Below, in pieces: positions 4,862-18,728 of a stretch of 64,000 nt of DNA. The notes beneath the pieces are model-generated. The model made no database searches and was not told where the DNA came from. It saw only the letters and a program-made list of their open reading frames with translations. The stretch is from Paraburkholderia youngii (GTDB lineage Bacteria > Pseudomonadota > Gammaproteobacteria > Burkholderiales > Burkholderiaceae), in assembly GCF_013366925.1 (NCBI RefSeq), contig NZ_JAALDK010000003.1, positions 372,001 through 436,000 on the forward strand, given 5' to 3'. Within the stretch, counting starts at the first letter, position 1. Each line of letters starts with the position of its first letter. A program made the position numbers and the translations under genes.

Positions 4862-6205
4862 AGACACTCCATATCGGAACACGTTAATACACCGTAATTT
4901 ATTTGCCCTCGCCGCACTGGCCGCCGCAGGTTACGTATCGTACGAAATTCTCTACGCAATCACTAGAAGGAATGGGTATCAAATATATTGATGCCGATGC
5001 TGCTCATCATGGAGGTCGGTGCTGAGGGGTCGCGGCGGGAGCTTGTCGTTCGAGGCATGAGGAAAACCAAAGGTATCCGTACGTCCCCTATCCACGTCTT
5101 TGCAGTCTTGGCGGTCCTTTTTCATGATCTTCGAGGTTCCTTTGCCTGCACTAATGCTGGCTTAGGCCTCCTGCCGCTCCCAGTATCCGGCTGTCTGAAT
5201 TGCTCAGGCACCTCTTCGCGATGCTTCCGGGGTGGCGGAACACGGCCCCTACTACAGGGCTCCCGCATACCATTCATAACGCTTGTGAAGTCGGGGGACT
5301 TGAGATTCCCATCAAAGATTTTCCTGTGGGCATAAATTGTCTTTATTTGATATCGCCCCTGCTATTGAGGTATAACGTACGACAGCGGTTTATTGGGGAT
5401 CAGAAAATGCAGCCTATTCAAAAAATAGGACATTGTTATCACCTAAGCAGTGGTCACTTTCCGCAGAAAAACGTAGCATTGAATGTCTTACTGCGCGTTT
5501 TTGTGATGTATATCGACATGGCATTTTGCAACATAGAGGAATGCAGGCAATGACGAAGAGCCGGCCAGTTGCTGTCCAGCATTAACCGTGAAAAAGGGAG
5601 TTTCCACACGATCTCACCCCTCAACTGCCGATCGAGTAGCCTGCGTTGCAAAGGTAGGGATATTCGAGTGGAATAGTGGTTCTCAACTGCTGCCGCGGCA
5701 CATCACAGCGGCTCATCGGCCGTTCCGTTGGAGCGCAGGGAATCCTCGCTAGTCAGTGCCTGATTGTCATATCCAGCGGCAGGCCCTACGATCAACGAAA
5801 CTTGGGATCCCGCGATTCTTCTGTTGTTCCGTCGACAGTGTGCATCGCCGTTAGTGACCAAATGATAACTACATTTTTCCATCGAACGAAAAGGGAGGCA
5901 GCGCGGTCGCGCCACTGTGTCTGTCCTGGCATTCTCCTGCCTGTGGCAGGAGTCAGATCTCTTTTCGTTCCTGTATCGGACAAACCGGGGTGCGAAACCC
6001 CATGGAGCCGCACATGAACGTCACAGTCACCTCCTGGCGCCAGCCTTTGCGGCTGGCAACATCATCCGGATCCCGCCGTCAATCGATCTGCCGATCTGAC
6101 TAGCTTCGATCCGTCGGCATTTTACCGGCAATCTCGCGTGGCACCCGTGTGCCTTCGCATTGGTGCGTTCGGCATTTTCCGCCCCAATACCCCTTCTTTT
6201 TGATC
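4862..6205. other. Long gene-poor stretch
   Basis: Nothing here reads as a convincing protein on either strand. Short open frames exist but lack ribosome sites and recognisable motifs. Base composition is lower in GC than the flanking genes. The right end must hold the porin leader and promoter, but no clear -35/-10 pair was identified. Confidence 0.4.
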
Positions 6206-7300
6206 ATGAACCAACTTCACTACTGCTCGGTGGCCGGCGCATTGCTAGCGCCCCTCAGTTCTACCTGCTCAGCCCAAAGCGTCACGTTATACGGTGCACT
6301 CGATGCGGGCCTCGCCTACGTCAGCAACGTGGATGGACATGCGCAATATCGCGCGACGTCGGGATTGATAGATGGCAGTTTCTGGGGCTTGCAAGGTACC
6401 GAAGATCTGGGCGGCGGAGCCCGAGCACTTTTTCGCATGGAGCGTGGCTACTCGGTGACCTCGGGCGAAGGATTCAACGATCGTCCGATGTACGTGGGAC
6501 TTCAATCCGAGACCCTCGGTACGCTGACCCTCGGCCACCAATACGACCTGATTCACGACTATTTCGCGCCGTTCACGCTGACAGGGGGAACCGGCGGTAC
6601 CGCGTTCGCGCATCCGTTTGACAACGACAATGCCAACAACTCCTACCTCGCCGCGAACTCCGTCAAATATGCAAGCGCCTCTCTGAACGGGTTCAGCTTC
6701 GGCGGCATGTATGCATTCTCCAACACTGCAGGCCGGTTCGCGCAGAACCGCGCATACAGCATTGCTGCGAACTACGGCAATGGCCCATTCAATGCCGGTG
6801 TCGCATGGATGCACAACAACGGACGCGGCCTCAACGAGGTCGGTGCCTACTCGCCATCGGCATTGCCCGGCAGCGGTCAGGCAGTGATCGACGCCAGTGT
6901 GCAAAAGCAGGATGCGGTCGCCGCCGGCGCGAGTTATGCGCTCGGCGATGTGACTCTGGCAGGGGCGTGGTCGCGTTCGATCTACACAGGCGTTGCCGAT
7001 GCGGACAGCGGCAGCGTTTTGCCGTCGATCGGGTTCAGTAACTACGAGATCAGCGCGGTCTGGCAAGCTTCGCCCGCCCTCTCGCTAGCGGGTATGTACG
7101 TGTTCTCCGACGCTTCTTCGGCGCATTGGCACCAGGGCGCGCTGCAGGCCGTCTATCAGCTGTCGAAGCGTACGGACGTGTACGCGGAGACGATCTATCA
7201 GCACGCGTCATCGGGCGCGCCTGCCGTGATCAACATCAACGATCCGTCAAGCAGTCAAAACCAGTTGCTCGTTGGCACGGGCATCCGGCACCGCTTCTAG
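6206..7300 (+). CDS. Outer-membrane porin, Gram-negative (OmpC/Burkholderia) type
   Basis: The 364-residue protein has a signal peptide ending SSTCSA, and the mature chain begins QSVTLYGALDAGLAYV, the first beta strand typical of Burkholderia porins. It contains the WGLQGTEDLGGGARALF strand-turn region, a long loop with negative residues, and ends in phenylalanine (TGIRHRF), the outer-membrane assembly signal. It should form a trimeric 16-stranded barrel for small solutes. The start at 6206 is chosen because the signal peptide begins MNQLHYCSVAG; the upstream in-frame codons read poorly. No operon partner is seen. Substrate preference is unknown. Confidence 0.92.
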   Translation: MNQLHYCSVAGALLAPLSSTCSAQSVTLYGALDAGLAYVSNVDGHAQYRATSGLIDGSFWGLQGTEDLGGGARALFRMERGYSVTSGEGFNDRPMYVGLQSETLGTLTLGHQYDLIHDYFAPFTLTGGTGGTAFAHPFDNDNANNSYLAANSVKYASASLNGFSFGGMYAFSNTAGRFAQNRAYSIAANYGNGPFNAGVAWMHNNGRGLNEVGAYSPSALPGSGQAVIDASVQKQDAVAAGASYALGDVTLAGAWSRSIYTGVADADSGSVLPSIGFSNYEISAVWQASPALSLAGMYVFSDASSAHWHQGALQAVYQLSKRTDVYAETIYQHASSGAPAVININDPSSSQNQLLVGTGIRHRF

Positions 7301-7863: not shown

Positions 7864-8243
7864 CGCCAGTTCCGCAGATGCTCAAGATCGTCGGATGGAT
7901 ATCATAATCGAAGCGCCGGGTAAGTCATACGCGGGGCAACCGGGAGATGCCCGTGGTGCTCGATCGCGCGCTTTCCGGCATTCGCCTACCTCAGGCAGGT
8001 CCGCCGGCTCCTCATTTGATCGCGGTCCGTGTCAGCCGAACAATTCGCGGGATTGGTGCAGTGCAGCAAATGGTGTTACATTGCTAGCCTTTCCTCCTCG
8101 CGCGCCACGTTTTGCGCTTCCCTATCGCACGCTGGTTCTGCGGGCCGTGTTCATTGCCCGTTGCGATCCTTCATCTCGTGCCTGCCCCGCAGCCGGCAAC
8201 CGCTGGTTTCGCGATCGCCGGGCAAACCCATTCAGGAGAATGT

Positions 8244-10238
8244 ATGGCAAAGGTTGATCCGTGCAATTCAGGTCCAGATACAGCTGCATCAGCGCCGAAA
8301 GCGTCGGCCCGGCGCGCATCGAAGAGCAAGGCAACCGCAGGCCTGCTGCCGGTGGATACAGTGTCGCCGGACGAAGAGCAGCAGCGTCAGATGCGCGCAC
8401 TCATTCAGCTCGGCAAGAAGCGCGGCTACCTGACTCATGCCGAAATCAACGATCACCTGCCGGACAACTTCGCGCAGACCGCTGCCATTGAAACCATTGT
8501 CAGCACCTTCAATGACATGGGCGTCGCGGTCTACGAACAGGCGCCTTCAGCGGAGGTGCTGCTTATGAACGATGCGGCGCCGGCAACCATGTTGGATGAC
8601 CAGGCCGACGAGGAGGCGGAAGTGGCGCTTTCCACCGTCGATTCGGAATTCGGGCGTACGACCGATCCCTTCCGCATGTATATGCGTGAAATGGGCGCGA
8701 CCGGATTGTTGACTCGCGCGGGTGAGATCGAGATTGCGAAGCGAATCGAAGGCGGCCTCCAGGAAATGATCCGGACGATTGCTGCGTGCCCGGTTACCGT
8801 CTCCGCGATCCTTCTGAGCGCGAAGCAGATTGAAGCCGGTGAACTGCGCATCGACGAACTGGTTGACGGTATCAATGAGGAAACCGAATCGGTCGAACAG
8901 TCGTCGACGGATTTCGCTGAAGCGCCGCACACCGAGCAGGCCACAGCTGACGATGACGACGACGACGGCGATGAGCACAGCGAGATTGAAGACCGGGACA
9001 CGGCGAGGGCGAACGAAGCGCGCCTGAAACAGCTCACGAGCGACAGCCTCGTTATTTTTGCCCGGGTGCGCGAGCTGTTCGAGCAGATTTCTGGTTCCCA
9101 TGCTGTGCAGGGTATGGGGCGGGTAGCTGGCGCGGACCTGCGTGAAGCGATCCAGCGCGAGTTGGCACCCATTCGCTTCACGGCGCGGACCATCGATCGG
9201 CTATGTAACGATGTGCAACAACAGGTCGCACAGGTGCGCGCAGTCGAGCGCCATATTCTGCAAATTGCTGTTGACCGATGCGGCATGCCGCGCGAGAAGT
9301 TCGTCAAGTCGTTTCCGGGACGCGAAACTGATCTCGCGTGGACTGAAAGGACGGCGGCGGCGTCGCGCGAGTACGGCGCCGCCCTCGAACGTAGTCTGCC
9401 GGCGATTCAGGCTGAACAGCGGAAGCTTCTCGATATCGAAACGAAGGTCGGACTGCCGTTGCAGCAGCTGAAGAAAATCAACCGGCAGATGATGGCGGCG
9501 GAGTCGAAGATGCGGCAGGCAAAGCGCGAGATGATCGAGGCCAACCTGCGCCTCGTGATCTCCATTGCGAAAAAATATGTGAACCGCGGCATGCACCTCC
9601 TGGATCTCATCCAGGAAGGAAATATCGGCCTGATGAAAGCCGTCGACAAATTCGAATACCGACGCGGCTGGAAATTTTCAACTTATGCGACCTGGTGGGT
9701 GCGGCAGGCAGTCACGCGTTCGCTTGCGGATCAGGCTCGCACGATCCGGATTCCTGTTCACATGATGGAGTCGATCAACAAGCTGAACCGGATTTCCCGC
9801 GAGATCCTGCAACAAACCGGACGCGAGGCTCATCCTGCGGTGTTGGCGCAGCGCATGGAATTACCGGAAGAGAAGGTTCGCGCCATGTTGAAGATTGGAA
9901 GGCAGCCCTTATCGCTTGAGACGCCAGTGGGTGACGATGCTGATGCGACACTTGGCGATATGATCGAAGATCCGACGGCGACGTCGCCCGCCGATGCGGC
10001 CGTGCAGGCGAATCTGCGCGCCGCGATCAATACGGCGCTCGACGCATTGTCGCCGCGTGAAGCGAAGGTCTTGCGGATGCGTTTCGGGATCGATACCGCA
10101 TTTGACTGTACGCTTGAGGAACTGGGCAAACAGTTTGACTTGACACGCGAACGGATCCGGCAGATCGAAAGCAAGGCGATGCGAAAACTGACGCATCCGA
10201 ACCGCACCGCCAAGCTACGACCATTTCTCGACCATTAA
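8244..10238 (+). CDS. RpoD-like group 1/2 sigma-70 factor, divergent paralogue
   Basis: The 664-residue protein has the full primary-sigma layout. Region 1.1 lies at about 40-90 ([20 protein letters not shown]). Region 1.2 is marked by [12 protein letters not shown] non-conserved insert is interrupted by a run of acidic residues ([16 protein letters not shown]). Region 2 starts at about 430 ([36 protein letters not shown]), region 2.4 is near 500 ([15 protein letters not shown]), and region 4 has the [23 protein letters not shown] at about 622-645. ATG at 8244 has AGGAG six bases upstream. It differs from the housekeeping RpoD of this group at many normally fixed positions, for example MHLLDLIQ for LQFLDLIQ. 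It is therefore more likely a second RpoD than the main one. The flanking gene is convergent. Confidence 0.9.
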
Positions 10239-11780: not shown

Positions 11781-12009
11781 AAAATGTGGCTCCGTGCGAT
11801 CGTTGATGTTTTGGCTCGTGAATTATAGACGAGAGGCAATGTTCGCATCGGATGCGCCAGCCTGCCGATATAGGGACGGTATACGAGCCGGAAGCGAGCT
11901 TCGGGACCGCAACGATGAGCATGGGTGGGTTCAACGAATCTACCTTGGCCGTGGCCGCCCATCGATCTGCAATGCGAAAACGATCGCAATCGGGCACCCA
12001 TCTATGCCG

Positions 12010-12310
12010 CCAAGGCGCGATGTTCAGATATCGGCGCGCACTGTGTCTGTATCAGACGCCGGAGAATTCGCGCATCGGACTGTCTGCGTTGCAGCAGGAC
12101 ATGCCGACGCAGCATTGCTGCCCAGCATAGTTCGACGGCATCCCGACGCGCCGCAATGACATTGCGTACAGCATCTGGGTGTCGTCGGCCGCCGCCTCGT
12201 CGACTGATAGAGCGTAGTCGATAAGAAGCTCGCCGCCGGTTCGATATGGACGCGAGCGTGAATGAACACCCGGTCGCCCGTTTCGATGGCTTCGCTGCTG
12301 CAAAGACGGG
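12010..12310 (-). pseudogene. SET-domain protein (lysine methyltransferase) remnant
   Basis: On the minus strand one frame gives EAIETGDRVFIHARVHIE. A second gives GGELLIDYALSVDEAAADD with QMLYA. A third gives CHCGASGCRRTMLGS. In order these make the end of a SET domain (RVFIHA..IxxGxELxIDY) followed by a post-SET cysteine cluster (CxCGAxxCRxTML). At least two frameshifts separate the parts and the N-terminal half is not clear. An ATG at 12482 starts MTTPHAKVAIVVTR, which may be the original beginning. Bacterial SET proteins of this form are common in Burkholderia. Confidence 0.55.
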
Positions 12311-12523
12311 CTCCGGTCTCGAACCTTGGTGGGTGGGTATTTTCAGGGATTTCGGAAATATTCCGGGGTTTCCATCCAACACCCGATCCAACAGTCGGCC
12401 CGGAAGCGCGAGATTACTTACCCCCAACCGCCGTCCGAACTCGTGTCACCACGATGGCTACTTTCGCATGAGGGGTGGTCATCCGTCCGCCGAGCTGTCC
12501 TCAAGCGCCTGGCGATAAACAGG

Positions 12524-12772
12524 CTAACCTGAAATCGAAAGCGAACTCGGGATACAGACGCTGAAACTCGTCCCGTGCCCGGTTGATTTAACACCTATTG
12601 TTCCGGGATGGGCCTTGGCAATGCAGCGGCAGTGTAGAGGCCAAGGCCCATGCCTGCCGCAGTCCCCGCCAGATTGTGAGGGATCGCTCGTGTCATCGGA
12701 TCAAACAGCGTAGGCAGCGCTCTTTCCGGTATCTGGTTAACGCGGATGAAAACGGTTGGTGCTGGTCGCGCT
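12524..12772 (-). pseudogene. Histidine kinase HATPase remnant
   Basis: The minus strand reads RALPTLFDPMTRAIPHNLAG and then GMGLGLY, the F and G2 boxes of a HATPase_c domain. After a frameshift it continues IAKAHPGTIGVKSTGHGTSF and SVCIPSSLSISG, ending at a stop at 12524. This is the last part of a two-component or hybrid sensor kinase. The dimerisation domain, N box and sensor are missing, so it cannot work. Confidence 0.55.
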
Positions 12773-12804
12773 CTGCCACGCGGCGGAGGGCGACCAGCGA
12801 TCGC

Positions 12805-15800
12805 CTAGGCGCACGCGACGCCTCCGAACGCAGGAAACCCGGATCGCGATTTGTCGCTGCTGGTCAGGCGCCGATCCAACGCCGCAGCCACGACCTGCAC
12901 ATTCGGCTCGGCGATCATCTCGAAGTGGTCGCAAGACACATCGACGACATCCAGCCCGCCGCGAGCGACGTGCTGCCACAGCGTCAACTGATTATTACGG
13001 TAAGACAGCGTGGACGTCGCGTGCACATAGACGATCGGTCCAGCGTGATAGGGCCTTGGCCGATACGTCGTCATCGCTACCCGTAACGTCTCGCGCACCG
13101 TCCGTAGTGCCGGCGGCATCATCGCGTTGTGGCTGTTTGGGCGGTGTGCCATGCGTCCATTGCGCATGCGCAAATAATCTACGACATTCGCGAGTCTGTC
13201 CTTCACGTAGTGCGTAAGTTGCGCCTTGGGGACGGCGCGCAGCCTGCGCCAGTGCCAGCCCAGGAAGTCACGGTTGTGCCGCAGCCAGGCCCGCCACGGG
13301 AGGCAACGCTCGTGCGCATAGGTATCGATCAGGCACAGCAATTCCATTTGCTCGCCGGCGCGGCTTAGCTGTTGCGCAATCTCGACCGCAATCAATCCGC
13401 CGAACGAGTAGCCCGCCACCGCGTAGGGTCCCGTCGGTTGCACGCTGCGCATCTGTCCGATGTAGCTGGCCGCGATGTCGTGAACGCGCCGTTGTGCCGG
13501 CTGCTCGCCGTCGAGGCCTCGTGCCTGCAGCCCGAACATCGGGCGCGGCGTCTGCATCGCCGCGATGAGCGCCGAGCATTCCATGACGGTGCCGCTCACC
13601 CCGTGTACCAGGAAGAGCGGTGTACCCGTGCCAGCTCGTATCGGTACGACCGTCGGCGAAGATTGCGGCACTCCGGGCTCGTCGATTGCCGCGGCGAGGC
13701 GCGCAATGGTCGGTGCGATGAATAGTGTCGCGAGCGGCAGCGTGCGCCCCGTCGACTCATTCACACTGGCAAGTAATCTCGCCGCCAGCAACGAATTGCC
13801 ACCTAGTTGGAAGAAGTTGTCGTCGCGACCGATCGGAGCTATGTCGAACAGTCTTTCCCACTGCGACTGCAAGTGCCGTTCGAGATCCTCCCGGGACTGG
13901 CCCACCGGCGCCAGTTCGCGCGTTGCCGAGTTCAGCGCCGGGTGACGCCGAATCGCGTCCAGACACTCGGGATTGCGCAGCGCCGCCGTGTTGCGCACCG
14001 GCAGGCCGCTGATCGCGTTGCGTGCGGCCGCTTCCGACGGCTTGCCATTGTGCGTAACCGGCAACGCATCGACGGCGATGATGCGGTCGGGCACGTGCGC
14101 CGGAGATGTGCGACGTGCAAGGTCGCGGCGCACACGGGCGGCCAGCGCTGCGTTCAGCTCGAAGCCTTCGCGCAGCACGAGCATCAACACCGTACGCTGA
14201 TCCGTTGGGGCTGCGTTCGAAGAGCCAGCCGTCATATTGCGCAACGACTGCTGAACGACCATCGCGTCGCGGATTTCCTCGATGTCATCCAGTACGCGAT
14301 AGATCTCGACCGGCCCGACGTTGACGCCGCGCACGTTCAGGACGCCATCGGTGCGGCCATGCAGTCTCGCAGTGCCTTGCGGCGAAAACTCGATCAGATC
14401 GCCGTGAGTCCAGACGCCCGGATTGCTCGCGAAATAGGCGGCGTGAAAGAGGGTGCCGTCCGTGTCGCCGAAGAAGCCGAGTGGACGTGACGGAAACGGG
14501 TTTGCGCACACCAGTTCGCCGATCCCGTCGACGGACTCGCCCTGCGAGCGGGCCTGAACGTCAAGCGCAAGACTCTTGCATTGGGCTTCGCCTGCGTAGA
14601 CCGGCAGGTTGGGATTGCCTAGCACAAAGCAGCCGATGATGTCCGTGCCGCCCGAAATCGACTGCAAAGGCAGCGGCTTCACGTGATCACGCACCCAAGT
14701 GAACTGTGGGTCGAACAGTACTGCGGCCGTCGACATCATCGCGCGCAGGGCGCTTAGATTGAACTGCCGCCCTGGCATCAGCCCAGCGTCTTCGCTCATC
14801 TTCAGATAAGCGGGGCTTGTGCCGAACACCGTGGCGCGCTCGTCGGCAACAAGGCGCCATAGCGTATCGACCGTCGAGATCGGGCCATCATAGGTGACGA
14901 TTTCGACGCCGGACGCAAGCGCCGACAACTGCCAGTTCCACATCATCCATGCGCAGGTGGTATGGAAGTACATCCGGTCGCCGGCCCGCAGATCGCTATG
15001 CAGCCGATGCTCCTTCAGGTGTTCCAGCAAAGTGCCGCCCGCACCGTGCACGATGCACTTGGGCTTGCCGGTGGTGCCCGACGAGAACATGACAAAAAGC
15101 GGGTGGTTAAACGGGAAGCGCCGCCATTCGAACGATGCGGCGTCGCTGTGCTCGACCAGTTCATCGAGCGAATAGATTCGTTGCTTGACCGCATCTGGTA
15201 GGGCGCCGTCGTCGAGACGGACAATACATTCCAGCGACGGCAAAGCAGCCGCCAGCTCGCCGATCTTGGTCGCGACCGGTACGCCCGTGTCGAAAGTCTG
15301 CGCCGCTGCGTGCGCGAACAGCAGGCGCGGCGAGAGCGGTGTGAAACGATCGAGGAGCGTCTCGACACCCATCTCCGGTGCAGCCGTCGACAGCGTTGCA
15401 CCGAGCGCGGTGACCGCCAGCGCAGTGACGACCGCTTCAGCGTCGTTGCGCATCACACACACTACGCGATCCCCCTGGCGCAGTCCCAATTCCGTGAGTG
15501 CATGCGCGAGACGCGATACGCGATCGCGCAGCTCACCGCGAGTCAGATGTACTCGCCGGCCATCGGCGTGACAGGCTGTCAGCGCAGGTGCCTCGGCCCT
15601 TGCTACCGACAAGCTCAAGAGGTTGTCGGCGTAATTCAGTTCGAGTTCCGGGAAGAACTGTGCGTGCTCGCATTCGTCGCCGACGCACACGGGTTTGAGA
15701 CTGCCGGACCAGTCAAGACCTTCAGACCATTGCACGAAGACTTGCCAGAACGTTCGATATGCCCGTACCGAGAAATCGTGCAGCGTTTCGTAGCTGTCGA

Positions 15801-15948
15801 AGATCTGGCCCGTGTGCGCCTGCAAGGCCGCGGTGAACGCGGTCATTTGAGAAGTGGCGGCGCACTCGGGGGTATTGGTGAAAATGGGGGCGCGTTCCGG
15901 GATTGCACCGGGGTAAGGCGACGCACAGGGCAATTGCAGGCGATCCAT
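12805..15948 (-). CDS. Three-domain A-T-TE enzyme with acetoacetyl-CoA-synthetase-like adenylation domain
   Basis: The protein has 1047 residues. Residues 1-650 are an ANL adenylation domain. WSEGLDWSGSL and LNYADNLL near 75-112 resemble acetoacetyl-CoA synthetase, the P-loop FSSGTTGKPK lies at 288-297, THGDLIEF and GRTDGVLNVRG lie near 490-520, and the C-terminal lysine motif is VTHNGKPSE. A carrier domain follows, with DDNFFQLGGNSLLAARLL (phosphopantetheine serine near 720). A thioesterase is last, with GYSFGG (serine near 848) and CDHFEMI (histidine near 1004). There is no condensation domain. I chose ATG at 15948 because GGGAGGAA lies just upstream. It should activate a carboxylic acid, tether it and release or join it. 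A-T-TE enzymes such as furanone or quinone synthetases do this with alpha-keto acids. The substrate is not known. No tailoring genes or phosphopantetheinyl transferase are adjacent. Confidence 0.85.
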   Translation of the reverse strand: MDRLQLPCASPYPGAIPERAPIFTNTPECAATSQMTAFTAALQAHTGQIFDSYETLHDFSVRAYRTFWQVFVQWSEGLDWSGSLKPVCVGDECEHAQFFPELELNYADNLLSLSVARAEAPALTACHADGRRVHLTRGELRDRVSRLAHALTELGLRQGDRVVCVMRNDAEAVVTALAVTALGATLSTAAPEMGVETLLDRFTPLSPRLLFAHAAAQTFDTGVPVATKIGELAAALPSLECIVRLDDGALPDAVKQRIYSLDELVEHSDAASFEWRRFPFNHPLFVMFSSGTTGKPKCIVHGAGGTLLEHLKEHRLHSDLRAGDRMYFHTTCAWMMWNWQLSALASGVEIVTYDGPISTVDTLWRLVADERATVFGTSPAYLKMSEDAGLMPGRQFNLSALRAMMSTAAVLFDPQFTWVRDHVKPLPLQSISGGTDIIGCFVLGNPNLPVYAGEAQCKSLALDVQARSQGESVDGIGELVCANPFPSRPLGFFGDTDGTLFHAAYFASNPGVWTHGDLIEFSPQGTARLHGRTDGVLNVRGVNVGPVEIYRVLDDIEEIRDAMVVQQSLRNMTAGSSNAAPTDQRTVLMLVLREGFELNAALAARVRRDLARRTSPAHVPDRIIAVDALPVTHNGKPSEAAARNAISGLPVRNTAALRNPECLDAIRRHPALNSATRELAPVGQSREDLERHLQSQWERLFDIAPIGRDDNFFQLGGNSLLAARLLASVNESTGRTLPLATLFIAPTIARLAAAIDEPGVPQSSPTVVPIRAGTGTPLFLVHGVSGTVMECSALIAAMQTPRPMFGLQARGLDGEQPAQRRVHDIAASYIGQMRSVQPTGPYAVAGYSFGGLIAVEIAQQLSRAGEQMELLCLIDTYAHERCLPWRAWLRHNRDFLGWHWRRLRAVPKAQLTHYVKDRLANVVDYLRMRNGRMAHRPNSHNAMMPPALRTVRETLRVAMTTYRPRPYHAGPIVYVHATSTLSYRNNQLTLWQHVARGGLDVVDVSCDHFEMIAEPNVQVVAAALDRRLTSSDKSRSGFPAFGGVACA

Positions 15949-16041
15949 ATTTCCTCCCATGCAAATGGATTTAAGATGCCCGTTTATAGTCAAATTAATG
16001 CTATTGAGCCGCCTTCTTTTTCTATTTGCGAAAACGTACTT

Positions 16042-16341
16042 TTAGAAGCGTTTATTGGGCACCTGAACCTTGATAAAAGCACTGTAACCTGGCACGCCGG
16101 AGAACGGTGCTAAAAGGTAAATTTGCCAACGCTTTTCGCGTACGTGTTGCTTCAGATCAATCTTCCCGTACGCTCTCAAACGGGCAAGCACGCGGGAAAA
16201 TGCGCCGACCATCTGAACCCAATTGATCCCTTTAGCATGGAGGCCCGGATGCCGCGGCTCATAGAAGGTGACGATCACCGGGAGGCGGCGAGGCCAATCC
16301 AAAGGCGTCTCAATTGCCCAAAGATAGCGCTGTATGACCAT
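16042..16341 (-). CDS. Hypothetical protein of about 99 residues
   Basis: The frame reads MVIQRYLWAIETPLDWP at its start and FSGVPGYSAFIKVQVPNKRF at its end, with the aromatic and basic content of a globular protein. GGGAGG lies directly before the ATG with no gap, so the true start may be upstream, though no better codon is visible. No family recognised. Confidence 0.35.
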   Translation of the reverse strand: MVIQRYLWAIETPLDWPRRLPVIVTFYEPRHPGLHAKGINWVQMVGAFSRVLARLRAYGKIDLKQHVREKRWQIYLLAPFSGVPGYSAFIKVQVPNKRF

Positions 16342-16906
16342 CCTCCCGATTGGGACGCGGTGTAAGCGGGTGTCAACGGGAGATGAAGCGGTGACACAAC
16401 TGGCTCAAGCACGCGACGAGTCTTGTCCAATTCAATTTTCGGCGCTTGCGCCGCTTCCAGTACGCGAGGTCGAGCGTGCTCGCCAAATCTGTCAGCAAAC
16501 GAATCTGTATTATCCACCGACGAGATCCTTGGATTAACCTAAACTACCGCAGGTAAAAATTCGTTATCCATCACCTTGCATTTTACCGGACGGTACGGGT
16601 CTAAACTTTGACTTAATGAAACAATGGATGCATCCAATGCGTCGTTGCAGTGAGGAAGACCGATTATGGTCGCGTTGGAATAATATTTGAACTGTTGCTA
16701 ATATATTAGGTCGTTACGTTATTGACTTTGGCCTGACCCACGAAGAGTTCCTGAGGTGTTAGTGACATCAAAGTCAACTACATGTTCGCGCAGACATCGA
16801 CAGGGTGGAGCTTGCCAGAGTGACGAAGAGCGCGGGCTTTCACCAAGGCCAAGGAGGAATTTAGCCAGCTACCTCAAGGACTAAATTAACTGCCGCTGTG
16901 CCCGAT
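16342..16906. other. Intergenic stretch without recognisable genes
   Basis: The central part (about 16540-16760) is AT-rich compared with the neighbours. No protein, RNA gene or repeat could be identified. Confidence 0.4.
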
Positions 16907-18163
16907 TCACGACTGAATGCGAGACGCCAGTGCTCTGAAGCGAGCAATGAGGGCCGCTGCGGGCATGGCTTTGCCATAGAGGTAGCCCTGCAAGTAGTCG
17001 ATGCCCATGTCCTTCAAAGCGTGCGCCACCGAGGCGGTCTCAACGCCTTCAGCAACCAGACGAAGGTTGAGTGTCTTGGCCGCTCCGACCAACGCTTTGA
17101 CCACGACTCGCGAAGTCTGGTCGACCTCAATTGCCTGGACGAACGAACGGTCCAGCTTGACCGTCGATATTGGGAAGGACGTCAGGTAGGTCATGTTCGC
17201 AAAGCCGGTGCCGCAGTCATCCAACGAGATGCGAACCCCCGTGGCCACAATCCGGTGCAGAATCGCCGGGTCTCCTCGACATCTAGCACCATCGCGCCTT
17301 CAGTCAATTCCAGTGAGAGCCGCCCGGGATGCACACCCGTTTCGGCGAGCGCGCGCGAGGATGTCTTCGAAATCATCGTGCTCGAGCTGGCGTGGGCTGA
17401 CGTTCACGCTCATGAAGAGTTTGTCCAGCCCTGCCTTTTTGAATTGCTGCAACTGCGCGAGTGCTTCGCGTAACGTGAACGCACCCAGCTCAATGAAAAA
17501 GCCACTGCGCTCAGCCACTGGAACGAAGTCTACCGGCGAAACAAAGGTGCCGCTGGGCTGCCGCCACTGCATTAGCGCCTCGCAACCCTTAAGCTCGCCG
17601 TCGGGGCTCACCAAGGGTTGGTAGTACACCATGAACTCGCCGTTCCGGTACGCCGCCGTCAAGACTTCCTGCTCGGCCACCGCGCCCTGCGGCTCGTACT
17701 TAGCCAGCTTGTCCGTTTTCGAGAGGTCAAGCCCGACTATCCAAAGTTTGTGCGAGTCGACGGCCCGAAACACCTTCGCCTGAAACGGCACCCTGCCGCC
17801 ATTTTTCGCGCGGAACACCACCATCATTTCCGCCAGTTGGCCCGTGCGGGCGCGGCGAATCGCGTCCCGGAAGCGGGGCGCGCTGCTGACCTCGACGAGC
17901 GACACGACGTCGCGCCCCCGTGCGAGGGCGCCGGGCGCCATCATTGCAAATGCTCCTGCGCTGGCGTACTCAATTGCACCTTTTTCGGAGACGAGAAAGG
18001 CCGCGTCCGCCGCACACTCCGCGAAGTGAAAGTGAACGTTCAGTGCGCCGACCCAGGAGCGCTCCACCGAAAGCCGGCCCGCAGCGGGGCACGACCAGAC
18101 ATGAGTACGGTTCACGGGTGGCTTCCGACCGTTGATTTGTCTGACTATAACCCATTTCATCAC
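16907..18163 (-). pseudogene. PAS-EAL cyclic-di-GMP phosphodiesterase, frameshifted twice
   Basis: Three frames in order rebuild one protein. The first has a PAS-like part (FLVSEKGAIEYASAGAFAMM) and the start of an EAL domain: YYQPLVSP, CEALMQWRQP and SVNVSPRQLEHDDFEDIL. The second has GRLSLELTEGAMVLD. The third has ISLDDCGTGFANM, STVKLDRSFV, AEGVETA and GYLYGKAMP. The EAL metal and catalytic motifs are all present apart from DDFGTG reading DDCGTG. Breaks lie near 17305-17375 and 17200-17250. As sequenced, no full-length enzyme can be made. It would have degraded cyclic di-GMP. Confidence 0.8.
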
Positions 18164-18380
18164 TGTACCGCACAGAGCGGGGGCAACTCGCTGTCCGCCG
18201 GCCTGAGTACAACCAACGGCAACGTGGCATCACTGTCGACGTTGAAGTTGACGTTCGCTAAAGTCAGTTCTCTGGCCACAAGGCCAGCATCAACCACCAA
18301 ATGGGGTCATTGTTCCCGTCAACCCCTGTTTTGCCGCTATTCGGGTGAGGCCCACGTTTGAAGCGTAAGGTTGCAGGCGG

Positions 18381-18728
18381 GTGCGCTATGTCGGTGTACC
18401 CGCCGATCATGTTCTCTACGGCGTCGATCGTCTCGATCTGGTGCCGTTCGCCGACTCATGGCGCGATGGTCACGTCGTCCCCGACGAACAGGGCATCGTG
18501 AATTTCTTCCTCTCGATGTTCAGCGACGCCGGGAACGAGATACCCGAGTCGCACGCACCGCTCGCGATGCTCCTTACTGCGCATGGTGGCCTGAGCTTCG
18601 CGGGTAGGCTCACGTCATGGCCCGCCCTGTGGTTCTTCGGCTTCGACTGCGGCCATGCCAGTGACTATTCGCTGGGGCTGCACGAGGTCCACTGCAACAC
18701 AGGGTACTGGCGTCCGTCAGGTTGTTGA
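18381..18728 (+). CDS. Conserved hypothetical protein, probably 5'-truncated
   Basis: The 115-residue frame starts at GTG (RYVGVPADHVLYGVDRLDLV) directly after an in-frame stop. It contains HGGLSFAG and FFGFDCGHASDYSLG. The pattern 'YVGVPxxHxLYG ... HGGLxFxG ... WxFGFDxxHxxD' is known from small phage and plasmid proteins of unknown function. No ribosome site is obvious, so the original beginning may be lost. Confidence 0.5.
   Translation: MRYVGVPADHVLYGVDRLDLVPFADSWRDGHVVPDEQGIVNFFLSMFSDAGNEIPESHAPLAMLLTAHGGLSFAGRLTSWPALWFFGFDCGHASDYSLGLHEVHCNTGYWRPSGC

Follow-up and report, generated by a model that had tools for sequence, protein, structure and literature searches.

Among described systems, the acetoacetyl-CoA synthetases (AACS; equivalog model TIGR01217; S. 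lividans AacS, PDB 4wd1) and the NRPS-like single modules composed of an adenylation, a carrier and a thioesterase domain (A-T-TE) are the ones to which the protein described here is best compared. This protein is encoded in the window, that is, the whole 64,000-nucleotide stretch of a Paraburkholderia youngii contig that was analysed, whose positions are used throughout. It shares with AACS the fold, the acid-pocket columns and the catalytic lysine, but it is fused to a carrier and a thioesterase (TE), belongs to a separate clade and is devoid of the residues of the presumed CoA region that are conserved in the stand-alone enzymes. With the A-T-TE modules, of which RalA of ralfuranone and the atromentin synthetases are examples, it shares the domain order and a Ser/Asp/His TE, whereas its adenylation (A) domain is AACS-like. 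In the D-alanylation pair DltA/DltC, an adenylate is formed, passed to a carrier and transferred to an acceptor in the cell envelope, and this system employs separate proteins, an amino-acid substrate and a different transferase. The window protein may resemble this pair in its inferred working scheme, and no membership is claimed. Closer relatives, found in Methylobacterium, Bradyrhizobium and the Acetobacteraceae, are of two kinds: in one, an A domain of the same clade and the same carrier are followed by a GNAT acyltransferase-like end instead of the TE (AACS-T-GNAT-like proteins), and the other has a hexapeptide acyltransferase-like end in that place (AACS-T-hexapeptide proteins); both are called acetoacetate--CoA ligase where they are named.

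The reading frame of the window gene is intact, and all catalytic residues of the A, carrier and TE domains are present in a single chain:

12805..15948, minus strand: AACS-T-TE gene, 1047 amino acids (ATG at 15948, stop codon at 12805-12807)
13930..15891, minus strand: AACS-like adenylation domain, residues ~20-673 (TIGR01217; 4wd1; catalytic Lys636)
13684..13872, minus strand: carrier (PP-binding) domain, residues 693-755 from the ATG, attachment Ser719 (PF00550, 3.5e-11)
12886..13620, minus strand: type I thioesterase domain, residues 777-1021 from the ATG, triad Ser848/Asp875/His1008 (PF00975, 7.3e-28)

The protein scores 576.1 bits against TIGR01217, above the curated cut-off of 520.9, and 87.6 bits against the amino-acid adenylation model TIGR01733, for which 317.4 are required. 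Because the latter value lies below the cut-off, the protein represents an A-T-TE variant with another class of A domain; judged by its sequence, it is an NRPS-like single-module A-T-TE enzyme in architecture and AACS-like in A-domain class. The description of an AACS-like A domain joined to a carrier and a type I TE with complete motifs, which had been given in a sequence-only reading, is thus borne out by TIGR01217, PF00550, PF00975, the match to 4wd1 and the conserved catalytic residues. The attachment serine of the carrier occurs in 180/180 aligned TE-type rows, and the TE triad is complete in 177/180 (170 of the 180 being distinct). The full triad is missing in L056, whose row was cut at 1200 residues in the alignment, and in L017 and P0022, which have Gln at the position of the His. 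All three domains are under purifying selection.

The acid pocket was compared in two alignments, the first comprising 180 TE-type rows (170 distinct), 6 rows from Methylobacteriaceae and 60 stand-alone AACS, and the second including 120 GNAT-type proteins and two related synthetases of the host (frames chosen by BLAST). Trp337 and Asn338 are found in 180/180 TE-type, 6/6 Methylobacteriaceae and 57/60 stand-alone rows, and Asp436 in 180/180, 6/6 and 56/60, respectively; Cys440 and Phe441 are present in all 180 TE-type rows, and Gly433, Gly434 and the catalytic Lys636 in every row of the first alignment. When AACS-specific columns are defined as the 61 of 147 stand-alone-conserved columns that are not common to the two related host synthetases, 38/61 are retained at ≥90% in the TE-type and 38/61 in the GNAT-type proteins, with 32 retained in both. 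This conservation speaks for the short beta-oxo or beta-hydroxy acid substrate proposed in the sequence-only reading, the activation of such an acid remaining a prediction. Other positions of the active site differ: residues 409-410 are mostly Ser-Pro in the stand-alone and mostly Ala-Val in the TE-type rows; residue 408 is Ala in the window protein and Gly in nearly all rows; and Arg543 of the A8 motif, found in 60/60 stand-alone and 6/6 Methylobacteriaceae rows, is Arg in only 6/180 TE-type rows, where it is mostly Asn. Since Arg543 is so rarely kept, the TE group seems to have changed beyond losing the use of CoA. These substitutions would fit an AACS scaffold that had been turned to the activation of another small acid, in which case product guesses based on acetoacetate would be wrong; against this stand Trp337, Asn338, Gly433, Gly434, Asp436, Cys440 and Phe441, kept in 180/180 TE-type rows, and we consider a different acid improbable.

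A further departure from AACS lies in the presumed CoA region. Position 611 is Arg or Lys in 60/60 stand-alone rows, in 1/180 TE-type rows and in 0/6 Methylobacteriaceae rows, and position 617 is Arg in 60/60, 0/180 and 0/6, respectively. In the second alignment, the stand-alone rows again show Arg or Lys (60/60) and Arg (60/60) at these columns, and Ala is the commonest residue in both fused groups. The window protein has Ala611 and Ala617 and is without the loop motif Y.Y.G[KR], which, counted free of any alignment, occurs in 52/60 stand-alone proteins, in 0/125 TE-type and 0/120 GNAT-type proteins, and in 1/180 of the other TE-type set. A second alignment-free motif, [ST][PA]RHVP, is present in 55/60 stand-alone proteins and in none of the TE-type or GNAT-type. 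Positions 216-221 of the loop are aligned in the first alignment, but in the second the stand-alone rows are gapped there, which makes the column counts alignment-dependent; therefore, only the motif count is used for this loop. Residues R191, R194 and R584 of Acs are what we take to be its contacts with CoA, and mutant structures of Acs R194 and R584 appear, by title, among the PDB matches. Position 611 was equated with Acs R584 by counting along an Acs alignment, but the two host synthetases, which speaks against it, show Gly and Asp there in the second alignment. From the Acs residues and the Acs alignment we infer that positions 611, 617 and those of the loop contact CoA, and the fused A domains would then seem to have lost their CoA-binding residues. 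A tree built from 70 adenylation domains has 47 carrier-fused rows on one side of a branch and 23 stand-alone rows on the other (support 100/100; split found in 100% of 200 bootstrap trees). The domain search and phylogeny called for in the sequence-only reading gave an A domain that passes the AACS model and a fused clade of its own beside the stand-alone enzymes.

The family is distributed widely, and where databases give its members a name, this is usually acetoacetate--CoA ligase or acetoacetyl-CoA synthetase. Among 144 Paraburkholderia genomes, 57 have a TIGR01217 match with an E-value of at most 1e-120; taking frame length as a proxy for architecture, the match lies inside a frame of at least 1030 amino acids (A-T-TE length) in 34 of the 144 and in frames of 667-739 amino acids (stand-alone AACS length) in 28, with five genomes common to both sets (G022, G072, G110, G115 and G121). 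Of 299 genomes drawn from the phylum, 62 matched TIGR01217, mostly in frames of the stand-alone length. The search of named genomes gave 77 loci, the weakest of which match only parts of the query. The loci include Cupriavidus, Caballeronia, Glaciimonas, Acidisphaera, Siccirubricoccus, Pseudoroseomonas and a deltaproteobacterial bin, and some Alphaproteobacteria are among the holders of relatives; among plasmids, 7 of 113 matching records contain 80% or more of the query at a single location. The database and literature searches made yielded no characterised full-length relative of the window protein, and no paper on an AACS-like A domain fused to a carrier or TE was found in the literature searched, most subscription journals lying outside it. 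As to the suggested new small metabolite, no characterised full-length relative emerged from these searches, yet genes of this family are common and already carry a ligase name.

This name, taken literally, corresponds to an alternative in which the protein is an unusual acetoacetyl-CoA synthetase that serves acetoacetate or hydroxybutyrate metabolism, its carrier and TE either handing the acyl group on to CoA or simply releasing it by hydrolysis. In its favour, the A domain exceeds the AACS equivalog cut-off and is the only one in the host genome to do so, and 29 of the 34 long-form Paraburkholderia genomes are without a stand-alone AACS match. However, the residues conserved in stand-alone AACS are gone across the fused clade, the remaining 5 of the 34 genomes carry both kinds of gene, and hydrolysis would waste ATP; a role as such a synthetase appears quite unlikely. 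As databases list these enzymes as plain acetoacetate--CoA ligases, metabolic models that adopt this label would assign to the bacteria a reaction that they may not have.

The end domains provide a different line of evidence. In proteins of Methylobacterium and Enterovirga, the same carrier is followed by ~300 residues with weak GNAT matches (E 0.01 and 0.0066), the strongest GNAT match in such an end domain being 1.3e-7 (P0167). The model of the GNAT end domain is of low confidence (pLDDT 55.9; 11 sequences); most of the 50 Foldseek matches listed for it are titled acetyl- or N-myristoyl-transferases, a result used only alongside the weak Pfam GNAT matches. A search with a GNAT-type protein returned a GNAT-like end in all of the best 120 of 7997 matches, and one with the window protein a TE end in all 120 matches listed, both lists favouring full-length likeness. 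None of 297 genomes of one order chosen blind contained a GNAT-type relative. In Bradyrhizobium, the GNAT-type protein P0208 was matched in 10 of 117 genomes, six of which encode the GNAT type (one with two broken copies) and two a protein of stand-alone length at 39-40% identity. In the remaining two genomes, the similarity to P0208 ends after residue 773, beyond which lies a hexapeptide transferase domain (PF00132, 2.4e-10 in L173), with NCBIfam matches to WbbJ and NeuD-type acetyltransferases under their cut-offs. The hexapeptide type is 79-80% identical to P0208 over residues 2-773, and its end alone, used as a query, retrieved three database proteins, two of them named Bradyrhizobium. On the tree of A domains, which does not include the hexapeptide type, the TE and GNAT-like rows need two changes each, and the GNAT rows are monophyletic in 38% of bootstrap trees; these changes of end state are compatible with an exchange of end domains.

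We prefer a scheme of three steps. First, the AACS-derived A domain would adenylate a short beta-oxo acid, with acetoacetate as the most likely and 3-hydroxybutyrate as a possible substrate. Second, the acyl group would be loaded on the phosphopantetheine arm of the protein's own carrier at Ser719 and not on free CoA. Third, the TE would take it onto Ser848 and pass it to the hydroxyl or amine of an acceptor, either a small molecule or a glycan, a transfer that in the sister proteins would be performed by the GNAT-like or hexapeptide acyltransferase domain. The conserved residues, the clade and the neighbouring transferase genes make the first two steps highly probable; for the third, to which the domain exchange points, the chances are about even; and the whole scheme of a self-loading, carrier-tethered acyl transfer enzyme comes just short of an even chance.

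The main competitor for the final step is a TE that links at least two of the loaded acyl groups, giving a Claisen-type dimer (from acetoacetyl units, a dehydroacetic-acid-like pyrone) or a cyclic ester (from 3-hydroxybutyryl units, a diolide or triolide), so that a single protein would release a small diffusible lactone. The sequence-only reading had likewise proposed that a dimer, lactone or ester may be released. EntF and those A-T-TE enzymes that join loaded units are examples of this chemistry, and among solved TEs the best match by sequence is to the TE of an NRPS 4, with the EntF TE also among the matches listed; in addition, no pathway partner other than a phosphopantetheinyl transferase is widely common. 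However, this TE likeness, as well as that to plasmid-borne PKS/NRPS TEs outside the family (~34% identity or less among the 50 matches listed), is too generic to indicate which reaction is catalysed, and the sister proteins have acyltransferase-like domains in the place of the TE. To our knowledge, GNAT-like and hexapeptide domains do not perform such condensations. Their presence in that place favours transfer to an acceptor without settling the matter, and self-condensation is regarded here as unlikely but worthy of attention.

It is tempting to extend the acceptor-transfer scheme to the family as a whole. An AACS may once have been fused to a carrier, lost the use of CoA and become the loading half of modular carrier-tethered acyltransferases, whose TE, GNAT-like or hexapeptide ends would place acetoacetyl or 3-hydroxybutyryl groups on differing acceptors (amines, sugars, glycans) while bypassing CoA; we offer this history tentatively, with the balance somewhat against it. 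Should the three-step scheme hold, single-module synthetases would gain a new way of activating acids, and the family would lend itself to the study of the change from a CoA ligase to a carrier loader and of the swapping of end domains.

A carrier partner was sought in 56 A-T-TE loci, not all of which have long flanks or a complete gene. A phosphopantetheinyl transferase gene adjoins the A-T-TE gene in 17/56 (profile, E below 1e-24), five of the 17 matching by construction because the profile was built from them. A weak match was found in L021 (1.4e-6), and a partial copy follows the gene on the C. necator plasmid pENH92. Pfam confirms the family in L046, L051 and L031. In 14 of the 17 loci the transferase gene follows the A-T-TE gene on the same strand; in Glaciimonas (L031) it is located upstream, again on the same strand, and in Acidisphaera and Siccirubricoccus (L051 and L056) the two genes are divergent. 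Within Paraburkholderia, an adjoining transferase was found in 2/20 regions, compared with 0/40 control regions. The profile search found no such gene beside the window gene; the host has two PF01648 genes, a 163-amino-acid frame on contig C1 and a 329-amino-acid frame on C3, the contig of the window.

Neighbours were clustered over 68 loci and the window. In the 40 largest clusters, which were those considered, and setting aside the gene itself with the frames within it, the neighbours that recur comprise the phosphopantetheinyl transferase, a block of Caballeronia synteny, a 191-amino-acid Cupriavidus neighbour (6 loci, without a Pfam match) and two families of no assigned identity (6 and 5 loci, at scattered distances). 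No acceptor pathway gene conserved across the loci was found, and the AACS-T-TE gene seems to need few partners. Polysaccharide genes are within reach in 21/56 loci, a count for which the probes were partly drawn from those same loci. In a matched control the figures were 4/20 and 2/40 (Fisher p 0.089, not significant), and the association, a suggestive count only, was dropped.

Genes and frames near the window gene include the following:

6149-7300: porin gene
8112-10238, plus strand: RpoD-like sigma factor gene, a full-length sigma-70 with six Pfam regions
16907-18163, minus strand: EAL-domain gene, split into same-strand frames of 113 and 287 amino acids that match different parts of PF00563
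21000-22640: IS110-type transposase frames

Among the loci compared, L009 alone has a match to the sigma-factor frame; it also matches the porin, as does L070, and the EAL frames, one of which is matched in L024 as well. An extended match to the upstream stretch 16000-17250 was found in a single further genome, G010, among the 144 searched, the other matches listed being short pieces, and Rfam gave no match over 12000-18500. The sigma-70 gene, located on contig C3, is possibly an additional copy, and the split EAL gene is probably a decayed c-di-GMP phosphodiesterase gene.

Several relatives show peculiarities of their own. In Bradyrhizobium, the hexapeptide domain of L173, L164 (G720) and L163 (G814) comes after an apparent short GNAT-like remnant, as if one end had replaced the other, and genome G781 has two GNAT-type gene copies, each split into two overlapping frames (L165, L168, L169 and L170). 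A MurJ-like gene adjoins the AACS-T-TE gene on the opposite strand in 11 Caballeronia-type loci (L029, L030, L032, L036, L037, L044, L045, L048, L049, L050 and L066); Pfam confirms MurJ in L030, and a family with a pectate-lyase-like match (L048) lies further along. In P. piptadeniae (L017), a condensation-adenylation-carrier-thioesterase gene at 13684-18480 of that locus, on the minus strand, adjoins the AACS-T-TE gene, whose own TE is the one with Gln at the catalytic His.
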